Under the pieces are notes generated by a model, which was given only the letters and a program-made list of their open reading frames with translations, was not told the origin of the DNA and did not search any database. A DNA stretch of 38,775 nt from Clostridia bacterium (GTDB lineage Bacteria; Bacillota; Clostridia; Oscillospirales; Acutalibacteraceae), in contig JAGAVE010000062.1 of assembly GCA_017942105.1 (NCBI GenBank), positions 1 through 38,775 on the forward strand. The letters run 5' to 3'. Positions within the stretch are counted from its first letter, which is position 1; every line of letters starts with the position of its first letter. Position numbers and translations under genes: made by a program. Of the stretch, positions 28,013 through 38,000 are shown piece after piece.

Positions 28013-28047
28013 GTATGCTGTAACTCAGTATTCGTGGAGGTTTCGTG

Positions 28048-28719
28048 ATGTTTAAAATATTAGTTGTTGAAGATGACAGAGAGCTTAATAAAACAGTATG
28101 CTCATTCCTCAATCACGCAGGTTATGAGGCGGTCGGTTGCCTTAATGCAAACGATGCTTATGACGCGATGTATGAAAATATGTTTGACCTCATCGTTTCG
28201 GATATTATGATGCCCGGAGTTGACGGCTTCGAATTTGCAAGAAATGTAAGAGAGCTCAACAACGATATCCCGATTCTCTTTATGACCGCGCGTGACGATA
28301 TCGCATCCAAGCAAAGAGGCTTCCGCATCGGCGTAGACGATTATATGGTAAAGCCCATTGACCTTGACGAGTTGTTTCTTCGCATAGGTGCGCTTCTTCG
28401 CCGCGCAAAAATCGCATCTTCGCGAAAAATCGAAATTGGCAACTTCATTATGGATGCCGACGAACATACAGCCTACCTCAAAGACGATGAGATTTCCCTT
28501 ACCGCCCGCGAATTTAACATTTTATACAAGCTTCTCTCCTATCCTAAAAAGACCTTTACAAGAATGCAGCTTATGGACGAGTTCTGGGACGCAGACAGCG
28601 AAACTGCTCCCAGAGCGGTTGATGTATATATGACAAAGCTTCGAAGCAAGCTTTCCGATTGTGAGGATTTTGAAATCAAAACCGTTCACGGTCTGGGATA
28701 CAAGGTGGTGTTCAAGTGA
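28048..28719 (+). CDS. OmpR-family response regulator
   Basis: A 223-aa two-domain regulator. The receiver (1-115) has acidic E8-D9-D10, phospho-acceptor D52 in LIVSDIMMPG, T80 and K102 in DDYMVKP. The winged-helix effector (about 125-223) has LTAREFNILYKLLS, the ARAVDVYMTKL-like helix SETAPRAVDVYMTKLRSKL and the wing TVHGLGYKVVF. ATG 28048 is chosen; a GTG at 28045 is only 4 nt after GGAGG. It overlaps the kinase gene by 4 bp, forming one signalling unit that probably controls the ABC genes upstream, as in other resistance modules. Confidence 0.93.
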   Translation: MFKILVVEDDRELNKTVCSFLNHAGYEAVGCLNANDAYDAMYENMFDLIVSDIMMPGVDGFEFARNVRELNNDIPILFMTARDDIASKQRGFRIGVDDYMVKPIDLDELFLRIGALLRRAKIASSRKIEIGNFIMDADEHTAYLKDDEISLTAREFNILYKLLSYPKKTFTRMQLMDEFWDADSETAPRAVDVYMTKLRSKLSDCEDFEIKTVHGLGYKVVFK

Positions 28720-32044: not shown

Positions 32045-33325
32045 TTAAAACATTATATAGGTTGAAAATTCTTTTTTCTCATCATCATATTCCCATTCGT
32101 AACTGCCGTTGTATTTATCGGCAATCCGCTTAATGCTCTTTGTGCCAATACCATGATATTCCTTGTTTGGTTTTGTAGTTTTAAGAAACCCCGAAGATGT
32201 TTCGGGTTTTGTGTCACACGAATTAACGCAAGTAAGCATATCAAATCCGTTGGCTTTGTTTATAGACAGTTCAACAAATTTCTCCTTAGAGTTTTTTGCA
32301 GCTTCAACGGCATTATCTAAAACATTACTTAACAAAGCCGTTAAATCCGTATTTTCAATAAAAGACAGATTTGCGGTTTTAATAATTACTTCAAAACGGA
32401 TACTATCAGCCTCACATAACATCCTATACTTGTTGACAATCAGATCTAACATTTTATTGTTTGTTTTTCCACTAGTAGAATACTGTTGTAAATCGTTATA
32501 AATATCATCAATATAATTTAAAATCTCAATATTGTCAGTAAGACTCTTAATAACAATAAGATGGTTCTTTTCGTCATGAACAAATTTTTTTAATTCCTCA
32601 TTCTGGTGATCAAGTATCTTATAATATGCTTCATCAATATTTATTCTATCAAGCTCTGTTTGCAGTTTGAAAACAGCTAACTCTTTTTTGATAGATTGAT
32701 TGTAGAGTAGATATGTAGCCGCAATAGCTACTATGGATATCAAACAAGCGAATATAATCGAAACCTTAATTGAGTTTGTAAACTGATAATTAAATGATAT
32801 TTTCCAAAGCAGCACATAAACGAATATCGTACAAATCGGGTATATAATCAGCCATACAGGGGTTTTGGTGTTTGATTTTTTGTTGAATAAAAATTTAAAG
32901 TGCGACATAAGCTGACATGCAAGAAAGTAAAGCATTTTACTTATAAATATAAACAAAAAGTACATAAAATCCGTGCTTCTGTAATCTTTAAGTTCAGTTC
33001 CCATAACCACCGTTAAAAGGTTCATAGAGAGGAACTCAGTACCAATCATAAGTGCATCTAAAATTACCGCTAAAATCAATGCCGCTGTCTTTGTGCAATC
33101 AAACATTAAGTATGCAAACAGAAAGTTTGCAATTAAAAACACAACAAAATTAAGATACAGATTGTCTACAGACAGAAAAATGACAGTCGGACCAGCAAAA
33201 ATCATAACTCCAAAAAACAATATCAAAGGAACATTTTTCTTGGCGTTAAAAATATTTAAAAACATTATCGCAACGCCAAGCATTTCAATTAAATATGAAA
33301 AACAACTTGTTAATGTGTAAGCCAT
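32045..33325 (-). CDS. agrC: AgrC-type quorum-sensing histidine kinase
   Basis: A 426-aa kinase of the AgrC (HPK10, GHKL) class. Six or seven hydrophobic helices occupy residues 1-208 and would form the peptide-sensing domain. A dimerisation helix with KKFVHDEKNHLIVIKSL carries the phospho-acceptor H250. The GHKL ATPase domain has LSNVLDNAVEAAKN (N box) and GIGTKSIKRIADKYNGSY (G box). The start follows GGGAGA, 2 bp after the agrA stop. Order agrA then agrC is reversed from the staphylococcal one. Its ligand is probably the peptide encoded at 34661. Confidence 0.88.
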   Translation of the reverse strand: MAYTLTSCFSYLIEMLGVAIMFLNIFNAKKNVPLILFFGVMIFAGPTVIFLSVDNLYLNFVVFLIANFLFAYLMFDCTKTAALILAVILDALMIGTEFLSMNLLTVVMGTELKDYRSTDFMYFLFIFISKMLYFLACQLMSHFKFLFNKKSNTKTPVWLIIYPICTIFVYVLLWKISFNYQFTNSIKVSIIFACLISIVAIAATYLLYNQSIKKELAVFKLQTELDRINIDEAYYKILDHQNEELKKFVHDEKNHLIVIKSLTDNIEILNYIDDIYNDLQQYSTSGKTNNKMLDLIVNKYRMLCEADSIRFEVIIKTANLSFIENTDLTALLSNVLDNAVEAAKNSKEKFVELSINKANGFDMLTCVNSCDTKPETSSGFLKTTKPNKEYHGIGTKSIKRIADKYNGSYEWEYDDEKKEFSTYIMF

Positions 33326-33327
33326 TT

Positions 33328-34026
33328 TTATCTCCCACTATTGTATTTTAAAAAGTATTTTTTGAATGAAGCCTGTGTGCGATAAGATATGGGCAGAGAA
33401 TATTTTTCACTCAAGACAAGAGTATCTCTTCTATACTTGGTCACATATTTGAGATTTGCAATAAAACTGTTGTGAATTTGATAAAAATATGTCGCTGTAA
33501 GTTTTTCCTTCCAAAAATTCATTTTGTAATCAGTTATATACTCACCGCTAACGGTTACCACTTTTGTAGAGCGACCAACTATCTCAACATAAAGTATGTC
33601 GTTTGAAAAAACCTTTTTGTGTTCATTATCTTTTTTTAAATAAAAACTTATTTCTGTTTTATCCAACAGCTCCAACGCTTTCTCTAATCCCGAGACAAGA
33701 CGCTTAGTATCAAGGGGTTTGTTGATAAATCTGAAAACATCGACATCCATAGCATCATCGAGATACTTGTCATAAGCTGTTATGATAAAAATAATAATGT
33801 GCGGGTTATGTTCTTTTAATCGTGTTGCAATCTTGATACCATTAACTTCACCCATTTCAATATCTAAAAAAGCTATATCATAATAATTTATATTTTCAAA
33901 CAACAATCGACTATCATCAAACAAATCAAAATCAGCTGTAATATTTCTTTCTTGTAAAAAATTAATTACATTCTTTTTTATGTCATTAATATAAATATTG
34001 TCATCATCACAAATAACTATCTTCAT
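33328..34026 (-). CDS. agrA: AgrA-type LytTR response regulator
   Basis: A 232-aa regulator. The receiver (1-120) has CDDDN near the start and phospho-acceptor D55 in IAFLDIEMGEVNG, with a lysine in FINKPLD. The LytTR DNA-binding domain (about 135-230) has ILYVEIVGRSTKV, YQIHNSFIANLKYV and LVLSEKYSLPIS. Start at the ATG 34026 (MKIVICDDD), not the TTG at 34041 that sits in the preceding U-tract. It probably activates the agrDB promoter through the direct repeats at 34555-34584. A hairpin with a U-tract precedes it. Confidence 0.9.
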   Translation of the reverse strand: MKIVICDDDNIYINDIKKNVINFLQERNITADFDLFDDSRLLFENINYYDIAFLDIEMGEVNGIKIATRLKEHNPHIIIFIITAYDKYLDDAMDVDVFRFINKPLDTKRLVSGLEKALELLDKTEISFYLKKDNEHKKVFSNDILYVEIVGRSTKVVTVSGEYITDYKMNFWKEKLTATYFYQIHNSFIANLKYVTKYRRDTLVLSEKYSLPISYRTQASFKKYFLKYNSGR

Positions 34027-34045
34027 TTTTTTACCCCACAAAAAA

Positions 34046-34097: not shown

Positions 34098-34436
34098 TCA
34101 AATTCTGTTATCATCTTCTCTATGAATATAGCAGTCAAGAAGTTTCCAAATCGTTTTTTGCTCTTCAAGCGAACACGAAGCAACTAAATCGATTATATTG
34201 GTATCCACATCCTTTTTTATTATACCGGACAAAAAGTAATCGCTGTTACAATCCAAAATATCACAAATTTTTATAAAACTATTTAATCTTGGAAAGCTTT
34301 TGCCGTTTTCGATGTTTGAAATCTGATTATCGGAAACCCCAATAAGTTCTGCCAATTCCGACTGTTTAATACCCAACTGCTTTCTTCTTTGCATTATGCG
34401 AGAACCCAATATGTTCTTACAGTTTTTATCAATCAT
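34098..34436 (-). CDS. XRE-family regulator of the agr locus
   Basis: A 112-aa HTH_3 protein. The HTH (about residues 12-65) has LGIKQSELAELIGVSDNQIS and then NIENGKSFPRL. A short C-terminal helical tail (SLEEQKTIWKLLDCYI) follows. ATG 34436 after GGGTGATGAT is preferred over 34469, 33 bp upstream. It is upstream of agrA on the same strand and divergent from agrD. A long AT palindrome (34483-34513) sits in its promoter region and is a good candidate operator. Role inferred: autoregulated control of the agr locus. Confidence 0.85.
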   Translation of the reverse strand: MIDKNCKNILGSRIMQRRKQLGIKQSELAELIGVSDNQISNIENGKSFPRLNSFIKICDILDCNSDYFLSGIIKKDVDTNIIDLVASCSLEEQKTIWKLLDCYIHREDDNRI

Positions 34437-34482
34437 ATCATCACCCAACAATATGCTACCATTTGTCACGCTCCTTTTGAAC

Positions 34483-34513
34483 CAAATTATATTTATAATA
34501 TAAATATAATTTG
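34483..34513. promoter_or_regulatory. 31-bp AT-rich palindrome upstream of xre
   Basis: Arms CAAATTATATTTAT (34483-34496) and ATAAATATAATTTG (34500-34513) are perfect 14-bp inverted copies around AAT. A minus-strand TATAAT (34491-34486) lies inside one arm, so binding would cover the xre promoter. Confidence 0.65.
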
Positions 34514-34554
34514 TGATATTATAATTTTTCTTTATTAAATAATTGAAATTGTTA

Positions 34555-34584
34555 ATTTGTGCATTTTTGTTTTTGATTTATGCA
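34555..34584 (+). promoter_or_regulatory. candidate LytTR (AgrA) direct-repeat site
   Basis: ATTTGTGCA (34555-34563) and ATTTATGCA (34576-34584) differ at one base and are 21 bp apart, two helical turns. Known AgrA and other LytTR sites are 9-bp direct repeats with 12-13 bp between them. The second copy ends 15 bp before the -35 of the agrDB promoter, a good activator position. Confidence 0.65.
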
Positions 34585-34599
34585 AATCATTTATCGTTG

Positions 34600-34628
34600 T
34601 TGACTTTGTAAAAAAACACCCTTACGAT
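34600..34628 (+). promoter_or_regulatory. agrDB promoter
   Basis: TTGACT (34600-34605), a 17-bp spacer and TACGAT (34623-34628). An AAGGAGG site (34646-34652) and the agrD ATG follow. Confidence 0.7.
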
Positions 34629-34660
34629 TAAAGTACCAAATTGATAAGGAGGCATAATAT

Positions 34661-34813
34661 ATGTCAAAGTCAAACAAAGGAATTAAGGAAAAGCTCATCA
34701 AAGGTATAATCTCATGTGCCGAAAAATCCCTTAAAACTAATGCTAATTCTACAACAAGCGGATGGGGATTTCAGCCTGAGGTTCCTGCTAAAATCAAAAA
34801 TTTCAAAAAATGA
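34661..34813 (+). CDS. agrD: AgrD-like cyclic lactone autoinducer pro-peptide
   Basis: A 50-aa peptide. Residues 1-25 form an amphipathic, Lys-rich helix (KEKLIKGIISCAEKSLK). The core NANSTTSGWG (27-36) is followed by FQPEVP (37-42), the family cleavage/recognition motif, and a Lys-rich tail. Most AgrD cores have Cys where this has Thr/Ser; the only Cys (C19) is in the leader helix. A Thr32 or Ser33 lactone is therefore likely, as with the serine AIP of Staphylococcus intermedius. Perfect AAGGAGG lies 8 nt before the ATG, and agrB overlaps its stop by ATGA. The mature peptide is exported to act on AgrC. Confidence 0.85.
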   Translation: MSKSNKGIKEKLIKGIISCAEKSLKTNANSTTSGWGFQPEVPAKIKNFKK

Positions 34814-35415
34814 TTTATAAGACGGCAAAAGTTATTGCCAGTTTACTAATCAAACATAATTACTTAGTAGATGATGACAGAGATTTGTTTGAATACGGAT
34901 TTTTTCTGGTATTATCTCAATTAATCTATTCGAGTATTTGTTTGATTTTAGGTTTATTTTTGGGTTGCATTCTTGAATGTATTATCTTTTACATTGCTTT
35001 TAATTTATTAAGAAAATATTCCGGTGGATTTCATGCTTCAACTGAACTACGATGCTTTATAATTTCAACATTGTCAATCTTCTGTTCAGTGGTCTTTATT
35101 AGTAAGATGAATTTTTTTGTTTCTGATATAGGGTTTTCAATTCTGTTGTTTATTACTTCAATGGTAATTGTTGTTTTCTCCCCTTTAGATACAAAAGAAA
35201 AACCCTTAAGTAAAGATGAAAGAAAAAAATATCGCAAGTATTCGCTGATAGTTTTGGGTATAATGTTAATTGTGTGCATCGTCGGTTTTTGTTATGTGAA
35301 AGTATTGGCATATCCTATTCTGACTGCAATAATACTTGAAAGTATTTTTTTGCTTTTAGGCAAACTCAAGAAAATATATTTAATTAATCGCTCCAAATCA
35401 TTAACAACACAATAA
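34810..35415 (+). CDS. agrB: AgrB-type peptide-processing membrane endopeptidase
   Basis: A 201-aa membrane protein with about four to six helices. The active-site pair H75 and C82 lies in YSGGFHASTELRCF, with the same seven-residue spacing as H77/C84 of S. aureus AgrB. It cleaves the C-terminus of AgrD and forms the ring through an acyl-enzyme. Its start overlaps the agrD stop. Order D-B is the reverse of the staphylococcal B-D. A terminator follows. Confidence 0.92.
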   Translation: MIYKTAKVIASLLIKHNYLVDDDRDLFEYGFFLVLSQLIYSSICLILGLFLGCILECIIFYIAFNLLRKYSGGFHASTELRCFIISTLSIFCSVVFISKMNFFVSDIGFSILLFITSMVIVVFSPLDTKEKPLSKDERKKYRKYSLIVLGIMLIVCIVGFCYVKVLAYPILTAIILESIFLLLGKLKKIYLINRSKSLTTQ

Positions 35416-35423
35416 TACTAAAA

Positions 35424-35464
35424 AGAATCAGCCATTCTAACGGATGGTTGATTCTTTGTTTTTA
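35424..35464 (+). terminator. intrinsic terminator of agrDB
   Basis: AGAATCAGCCAT (35424-35435) pairs with ATGGTTGATTCT (35444-35455), one G-U pair, followed by TTGTTTTTA. Confidence 0.8.
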
Positions 35465-35535
35465 AGGAGTATTCGATTTTGTTTCCACGCCTCGCAGAAA
35501 TACCACGGAATTTTTCATTTTGCCGAGCATAGGAA

Positions 35536-35557: not shown

Positions 35558-36337
35558 TTACCACTTGGTAAGTGTCATTCTTTCTCCATCAGGACCAACC
35601 AAAACAAAAGAGGTTTTGTTTTCTGAAAGTTTGGTTTCAGCAGTGTATGTTTCTCCGCCAAGATTAATTGTAAGTGTGTCACCGTGAAGTTTCCATGAAC
35701 CTGTTCCATTTAATTGACTGCTCATACTCGAATACGGTATTTCTTGGGTAATATATTCGTAGAAGTATTCCTCTGCTTCTTCTCTGCTTGAGAAATTACC
35801 TGATTCTTCAATCTCTTCATCCGTTATCTTGGACATTTCTTTTTCTACGATTTGTCTAATCATATTTTCATAGTTATCTTTAGAAAAATAAACCTGAACG
35901 ACATTGCCCATAAAGTCAAAAGTAAAACGCAATTTAACTGCCACTCCGTTTGTTTCAAAGACAGCATTCCAGGAACCTAAGAGTAGGTATGTGTTGGCAA
36001 CCATAAGTGAGGGCTTTGTTTTATCATTAGACCCTTGTGAAGGTTTGGAGTTGTTGTTACCTTTGTTGTTTTCCTTATCTTCAACTTTGTCTTTATCTTT
36101 GTTCTGGGTCTTATCTTCAGTTGGCTTTTCAACTTCAGACTCATCTTGAGATTCTGTGGAAATCTCAGTCTCCGTGGTGTTTTTAGATTCAGTGGTATCC
36201 TCAGTTTTGGTCTCGGTTGTTTGTGATGTAGATCTCTCTTTTTTACTTTCTTCCGTTTTATTGTTGTCTTTTCCGCAAGCAGAAAAAAGTGATAAGACCA
36301 TAAGCAGTGAAAGAATTGATGCTAATACTTTTTTCAT
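35558..36337 (-). CDS. lipoprotein with Thr/Glu/Lys-rich linker and C-terminal beta domain
   Basis: A 259-aa surface lipoprotein. Signal peptide with lipobox FSAC (Cys about residue 21). Residues 22-110 are a low-complexity linker of Thr, Glu, Lys, Asp and Asn. The C-terminal domain (about 115-259) begins LLLGSWNAVFETNG and ends in GSWKLHGDTLTINLGGETYT and VLVGPDGERMTLTKW, a lipocalin-like small barrel often seen in Firmicute lipoproteins. GAGG-type site before ATG. It may bind a small ligand or sit near the wall; no partner is evident. Confidence 0.8.
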   Translation of the reverse strand: MKKVLASILSLLMVLSLFSACGKDNNKTEESKKERSTSQTTETKTEDTTESKNTTETEISTESQDESEVEKPTEDKTQNKDKDKVEDKENNKGNNNSKPSQGSNDKTKPSLMVANTYLLLGSWNAVFETNGVAVKLRFTFDFMGNVVQVYFSKDNYENMIRQIVEKEMSKITDEEIEESGNFSSREEAEEYFYEYITQEIPYSSMSSQLNGTGSWKLHGDTLTINLGGETYTAETKLSENKTSFVLVGPDGERMTLTKW

Positions 36338-37187: not shown

Positions 37188-38000
37188 TCACCTCATCTGC
37201 TCTTGAATAAAATTTAGTGTAACACTATTTATAAATCCCACTATATTCAAAACTTTATTAACTGATTTGTTTACAATATGCAACATATTTTTTACTTGAC
37301 TCGGCGAAATGTTTGGAATCACTTGGGAAACTTGATATTTAAAAGAGGAATAGTTTTTAGGTATGCTTTTATCTATTTTATTAAAAATAATTGTATCAAG
37401 AGACTCACCAATCACACTGAATAATACATCCGATCCAATTTCACTTAAATCGAAATTATCCTTATCAAAAAAATAGTTAACCGTATATTTAGAACCAACG
37501 CCGGTCACTATTCTTGCGAACGAATTCTTTAACCCTGTTCCAGGAATCATTCCGGACAATATTGACGAAACATATTCTCCTGCTGATGATCTTGGTTTTA
37601 AAACAGCTATACCTCTTTCTCCTTCAATATAGTTGTTTACTACATCTGAAACATATGTTGATAAACCGCCAAAAAACCCCTTTAAGGCAGTGCCAGCAAT
37701 CACCCCCAAATGACCTGAACAATCAACATACATAATCGGATTATTATCGCAATATGAATAGAGATTTTTATCCGTCAATTGCATTGGGCTTACTGTTACG
37801 AGGTTAACTCCATCCGCACTGATAAACCTTCCCCACTCAGGGTTATAATACCTCGATTTGAGATAATAAAGTCCTGATTCTTCATCATAGTAATATCCAC
37901 GGTAACGAAGGGGGTTCAGAAATGCAACATCATCGGGATTTGTAATCGATCTGCCGTTTTCGTCATATACTCCCGTGATATTTCCCCACGCATCTTGCTG
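37188..38000 (-). pseudogene. orphan Rhs core end plus C-terminal tip (5' truncated)
   Basis: The open frame starts after a TGA at 38001-38003 and has no start at its head. It begins DAWGNITGVYDENGRSI, then carries the Rhs core hallmark: LRYRGYYYDEESGLYYLKSR, YYNPEWGRFISADG, and NLYSYCDNNPIMYVDCSGHLG. After it comes a variable tip of about 160 residues (AGTALKGFFGGLSTYVSDVV to NFIQEQMR) with no known toxin motif. An internal ATG at 37784 could start the last 198 residues. It reads as a displaced toxin tip of an Rhs array, cut off upstream at a REP-like palindrome. Confidence 0.8.

Follow-up and report, generated by a model that had tools for sequence, protein, structure and literature searches.

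A complete agr-type locus in a Clostridia bacterium with a predicted serine-closed lactone signal, and related AgrD peptides with Cys, Ser or Thr at the ring position

The window analysed here, a stretch of 38,775 nucleotides from a Clostridia bacterium of the family Acutalibacteraceae, carries an agr locus whose agrD gene (34661-34813, plus strand) encodes a 50-residue AgrD pro-peptide, translated as MSKSNKGIKEKLIKGIISCAEKSLKTNANSTTSGWGFQPEVPAKIKNFKK. The features of the locus are as follows, with positions ahead of the recognition motif counted back from it (-1, -2 and so on):

32045..33325, minus strand: agrC, GHKL sensor kinase and likely receptor (HATPase_c_5, 75.7 bits)
33328..34041, minus strand: agrA, response regulator with a LytTR domain (Response_reg and LytTR matches; TTG start listed, ATG at 34026)
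34098..34469, minus strand: XRE-family regulator between agrA and agrD (HTH_3, E 4.3e-15; GTG start listed, ATG at 34436)
34483..34513, no strand: perfect 31-base inverted repeat with 15-base arms and a 1-base centre (repeat search; possible XRE operator)
34646..34652, plus strand: ribosome-binding site of agrD, AAGGAGG, ending 8 bases before the ATG (sequence)
34661..34813, plus strand: agrD, signal pro-peptide (TIGR04223 match, translation)
34757..34771, plus strand: predicted macrocycle Ser33-Gly34-Trp35-Gly36-Phe37, with Ser33 at -5, where relatives have their ring Cys
34772..34786, plus strand: QPEVP recognition motif following the predicted cut, of the broad motif type used as anchor
34810..35415, plus strand: agrB, membrane cysteine endopeptidase/cyclase (PF04647, 128.1 bits; His75 and Cys82 kept)
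35422..35457, plus strand: terminator-like hairpin downstream of agrB (one found against 0.3 expected in 34400-35520)

An AgrB with its catalytic His and Cys is linked here to a GHKL kinase and a LytTR regulator, and all five reading frames of the locus are open, each with a family match. The agrD stop overlaps the agrB ATG at 34810, so that the pro-peptide gene directly adjoins agrB, and the whole genome of the window holds one AgrB match and one AgrD match over cut-off. The peptide matched TIGR04223 (quorum_AgrD; E 8.5e-8, 32.2 bits against a curated cut-off of 19), while a Pfam search with it gave no match. Its translation places Thr32, Ser33 and Phe37 where the original prediction had put them and likewise confirms that the sole Cys is residue 19, within the leader, leaving none ahead of the recognition motif. 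The peptide therefore lacks the ring-position Cys of a thiolactone precursor, and belongs with AgrDs in the wider sense, those with a ring Cys or Ser ahead of the C-terminal motif, through Ser33 (codon AGC, 34757-34759). The enzyme had been expected to look normal, and its His75 and Cys82 are indeed invariant in all 79 AgrBs compared.

The arrangement of agrDB divergent from XRE-agrA-agrC is common to the window and the 14 related loci of its 15-row AgrB clade; agrA and agrC homologues were present at all 14 of these and an XRE homologue was in place at 13, the layout occurring alike with Cys-type and Ser-type AgrDs. The inverted repeat at 34483-34513 sits between the XRE gene and agrD and is a possible operator of that regulator. 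As regards mobile carriage, a viral-contig scan, which detects close relatives only, gave no match, and four plasmid records and one phage record matched, each at less than 60% identity. No solved structures related by sequence were found.

Three other reading frames of the window were noted in passing. Downstream of agrB and on the opposite strand, ORF 35558-36337 (minus) is lipoprotein-like, with a signal stretch and Cys recognized by eye and a Ser/Thr/Glu/Lys-rich linker, and had no Pfam match over its cut-off. The ORF at 37188-37784 (minus), without a Pfam match at E 0.01, has an N-terminal stretch, SYCDNNPIMYVDCSG, that appears similar to the end of an RHS-repeat core. ORF 28024-28716 is an OmpR-type regulator.

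The main survey drew on relatives of the window's genome (98 genomes; 398 family genomes) and on three named records, and covered 79 distinct AgrB loci. Duplicate loci (L022, L024-L032, L116, L205, L220 and L224), AgrB fragments (L019, L211 and L223, plus those in G262 and G430) and loci below the family cut-off (L013-L016 and L020) were left out before counting, and L130 was also unused; three rows were set by hand, namely the cores of L113 (motif re-anchored) and L221 (for the comparison of AgrB residue 74) and L092, classed as Ser at -5 and not Ser at -6. Both strands around each agrB were scanned for AgrD-like reading frames. An AgrD lay beside 75 of the 79 agrB genes (none was found by L011, L012, L085 and L107), and all 75 best hits fell on the agrB strand despite the two-strand search, which is more than chance would give. 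Positions in all 75 were counted from a motif of Q, E or H, followed by P, T, S, D or A, two residues, and P or S.

The candidate ring-closing residue lay at -5 (16 Cys, 11 Ser and three Thr) or at -6 (25 Cys and 20 Ser) in these peptides. Cys was absent from both candidate ring positions in 34 of the 75, and from the eight residues directly ahead of the motif in 28, which suggests that lactone signals are common in this bacterial family and not rare exceptions. A class-level sample of 69 loci, biased as the best-scoring part of a larger list, yielded an AgrD at 46 loci and none at 23; 12 of the 46 had no Cys at -7 to -4. Among these 12, five carry Cys further out, at -8, L182 (a chance-level hit) carries it at -9, and six have no core Cys (L149, L165, L174, L193, L196 and L198). 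The five with Cys eight residues before the motif (L139, L160, L161, L189 and L192) suggest larger rings or an earlier cut. Most of the 20 AgrDs with Ser at -6 (L002, L009, L018, L080, L081, L083, L084, L087, L090, L093-L095, L097-L099, L102-L104, L108 and L113) have a GAG-like stretch ahead of the Ser, whose register matches the one deduced for the C. thermocellum lactone, and four of them (L090, L093, L099 and L104) carry Cys directly ahead of the motif.

A tree of the 79 AgrB rows placed the window in a 15-row clade (98/92) of nine Cys-type and six Ser-type systems. Ala at -10 and Asn at -9 were each found in 14 of the 15 AgrDs, and the register is therefore shared across this clade. A first tree of the wider group put 44 rows, 43 of them with an AgrD, on one side of a branch (100/98), set against eight other rows only. 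The support of the window's AgrB group weakened as rows were added: in a 99-row tree those 44 rows were not one clade, two changes being needed and the rows forming a single group in 16% of bootstrap trees, and 35 rows including the window stood on one side of a branch supported at 75/85 and present in 72% of bootstrap trees, with no starred branch that contains the window and fewer than half of the rows.

The rule at position -5 is independent of the exact clade. The 35-row group yielded 34 AgrDs with Cys (17), Ser (11) or Thr (six) at -5, and the wider group gave Cys in 24, Ser in 13 and Thr in six, that is, one of these three residues in 43 of 43. Of these 43, 28 were in hand when the group was chosen and 15 were found afterwards by sampling relatives of three genomes; the later rows all have Cys, Ser or Thr at -5 as well (nine, three and three, respectively). 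Ser or Thr occupies -5 in all 19 wider-group members without Cys there, which was the question behind the alignment proposed with the original prediction; the 19 include L110 and L200, which have Cys at -4 and -2, respectively. The predicted cut site, -1, is Tyr or Phe in 36 of the 43. Two AgrDs with Ser or Cys at -5, those of L058 and L070, have AgrBs that nevertheless fall outside the window's group.

The original prediction had left the ring to Thr32, if cleavage falls before Phe37, or to Ser33, if it falls after. In the first case Thr32 would close a five-residue ring Thr-Ser-Gly-Trp-Gly. This would fit the registers deduced for the C. thermocellum lactone (S25-F29, followed by Y30 and P35) and for C. 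difficile Agr1, ANST[CPWII]; in both the ring residue would lie at -6, the place of Thr32 in the window, which counts against Ser33. Thr or Ser also stands at -6 in 16 of the 19 wider-group members without a ring Cys (Thr nine, Ser seven), but a hydroxyl there is equally common in members with the ring Cys (20 of 24: Ser 11, Thr nine, the remainder being Gly in four), and the other three of the 19 have Asn (two) or Ala (one). A hydroxyl at -6 is not required, because L207, L218 and L210, all sampled later, combine Thr at -5 with Asn or Ala at -6. By these counts the -6 hydroxyl does not track the loss of Cys while -5 always has a possible nucleophile. A ring closed by Thr32 would leave this constancy at -5 unexplained and would require that the cut had moved in several lineages closely related to ones with Cys at -5; it was disfavoured once the sample was enlarged, and we regard it as unlikely. 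The evidence from the aligned peptides leans clearly towards Ser33, and the most likely product is predicted to be the five-residue lactone Ser-Gly-Trp-Gly-Phe. There is good support for the broader expectation that a hydroxyl residue closes a lactone here, the ring itself being a prediction.

Loss of the ring Cys might alternatively have left a decayed or inactive allele that makes no cyclic signal. There are near relatives of the Cys type, the Ser33 codon AGC is one base from TGC, and the AgrB1 and AgrB2 of S. aureus are reported to be unable to process a Ser-containing AgrD (PMC10482373). Against this, the five frames of the locus are open with family matches, and the occurrence of only Ser or Thr at -5 in the 19 members without Cys argues for function. 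Close homologues with Cys that would expose such decay had been named as grounds for abandoning the original prediction; the homologues compared show no obvious decay. An AgrD over cut-off was found in two of the 18 genomes of the genus, the window's and G002, and both have Ser at -5. Decay is accordingly disfavoured and in our judgement very improbable, and the window AgrD neither looks obviously decayed nor stands alone.

We consider it probable that this is a complete quorum-sensing locus of the agr type, making a lactone and not a thiolactone, through a cut after Phe37 and a ring SGWGF closed by Ser33. The genes are open, their layout recurs at related loci and Ser33 stands at the site of the relatives' ring Cys; by analogy with characterised agr systems, from which cleavage, cyclisation, leader removal and sensing are all drawn, Cys82 of AgrB, aided by His75, would cut the pro-peptide after Phe37 and hold residues 1-37 as a thioester. 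The Ser33 hydroxyl would then attack the thioester to form the five-residue ester ring. The leader would be removed, perhaps near Ala28-Asn29, and the peptide exported with a short tail such as NSTT, to be sensed by the adjoining AgrC, which would signal through AgrA.

The active signal might instead be a lactone rearranged by an O-to-N acyl shift into a homodetic ring, or Thr32 might close a ring of six residues. Tail-less AIPs do rearrange (PMC11297923 reports 48% rearrangement of a synthetic lactone analogue of the Listeria AIP within 22 h at 37 C and pH 7), and the ring reported for C. acetobutylicum has six residues. Rearrangement depends on the ring residue having a free amine, however, and the conserved ANST before the ring suggests a retained tail; for the six-residue ring, homology places the nucleophile at -5 and not at Thr32. 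Both forms together seem highly doubtful beside the Ser33-closed, five-residue lactone.

Thr at the ring-closing site was found in L021, L086, L100, L207, L218 and L210, at two places of the first wider-group tree, and these six sequences predict Thr-closed lactone signals; among the papers listed by our literature search none concerns a Thr-closed signal, judged by titles and the openings of abstracts. Genus g130 has Cys, Ser and Thr types, and a single genome, G038, encodes one Cys-type (L004) and one Thr-type (L021) system. The best tree of the 43-AgrD wider group implies nine exchanges among Cys, Ser and Thr at -5, a number that depends on the clade, well-supported branches alone forcing fewer (two for the Cys label, three for Ser and one for Thr).

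The failure of the S. aureus AgrB1 and AgrB2 to accept a Ser AgrD implies that a change in AgrB is needed for the use of Ser, a point that weighs against the lactone reading. A first column scan of 21 AgrB rows ranked residue 44 highest, but 18 of 200 shuffles did equally well and we did not find it convincing. A scan of 43 rows ranked Phe74 first, present in none of the 24 AgrBs with a ring Cys against 10 of the 19 without, with none of 100 shuffles as good; these shuffles ignore relatedness, there are only two starred independent pairs, and the 21-row and 43-row scans disagree. Among systems of the other register, with the ring residue at -6, Phe74 is common in the Cys types (11 of 29) but rare in the Ser types (four of 20). 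Residue 74 adjoins the catalytic His (codon 35029-35031 in the window), and Phe74 may be read as a lead only, a candidate determinant of hydroxyl use proposed from aligned sequences.

That related AgrBs exchange Cys, Ser and Thr as the ring residue with their catalytic His and Cys unchanged, giving Thr-closed AIPs among the products, and that Phe74 may ease the exchange, is a proposal to which we give an even chance. If true, thiolactone, Ser-lactone and Thr-lactone signals would occur in related species, even within one genome, and Thr-closed AIPs would be a new signal chemistry. This AgrB group is a natural experiment on accepting a hydroxyl in place of a thiol, and repeated exchange around constant catalytic residues is of more interest than a single Ser ring.

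The original prediction held that a lactone signal of this sequence may be new. As regards chemistry this was too strong: Ser-lactones are already known, since Ser-closed AIPs have been published for Enterococcus, staphylococci and C. thermocellum, and both the 34 surveyed AgrDs without a ring Cys and the Ser of G002 make such a peptide less singular. What stands is the particular ring, for the exact sequence SGWGF was in no other AgrD listed in the main, class-level or later-sampled sets. Replacement of the central AgrD Cys by Ser in some cases is stated in PMC4916163. The TIGR04223 AgrDs and the agr loci surveyed within the window's GTDB family share gene family, motif and layout with the window, and members without a ring Cys are common among them.

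The AgrD of C. thermocellum (Clo1313_2818) is reported to give a Ser-closed five-residue lactone, whose identity LC-MS/MS comparison with the synthetic compound confirmed (PMC5322536), and so resembles the product predicted here. Its ring Ser, by the residue numbers, would lie at -6 with the cut before Tyr, whereas the window has Ser at -5 and a predicted cut after Phe, and it has no apparent adjoining agr operon, in contrast to the complete locus of the window. For C. difficile Agr1 the ring residue would likewise be at -6 (from L179), with the ring ending one residue before the motif; on sequence grounds both examples appear to correspond to other survey classes than the -5 class of the window. 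A Ser ring is tabulated for C. difficile Agr2 (PMC12312760). The same source gives the Ser-closed lactone QN[SPNIFGQWM] of the E. faecalis Fsr system (GBAP), also closed by Ser, its ring being of nine residues against the five predicted for the window. Table 1 of that source further lists the Ser-closed AIP of S. pseudintermedius, RIPT[STGFF], and a Ser-closed lactone AIP is reported for S. intermedius (PMC10482373). In these two staphylococci, as is predicted for the window, Ser replaces the ring Cys in an agrBDCA-type system, and the S. pseudintermedius lactone is a five-residue ring ending in Phe, as would be that of the window; their genes stand in the order agrBDCA, whereas in the window agrDB diverges from XRE-agrA-agrC.
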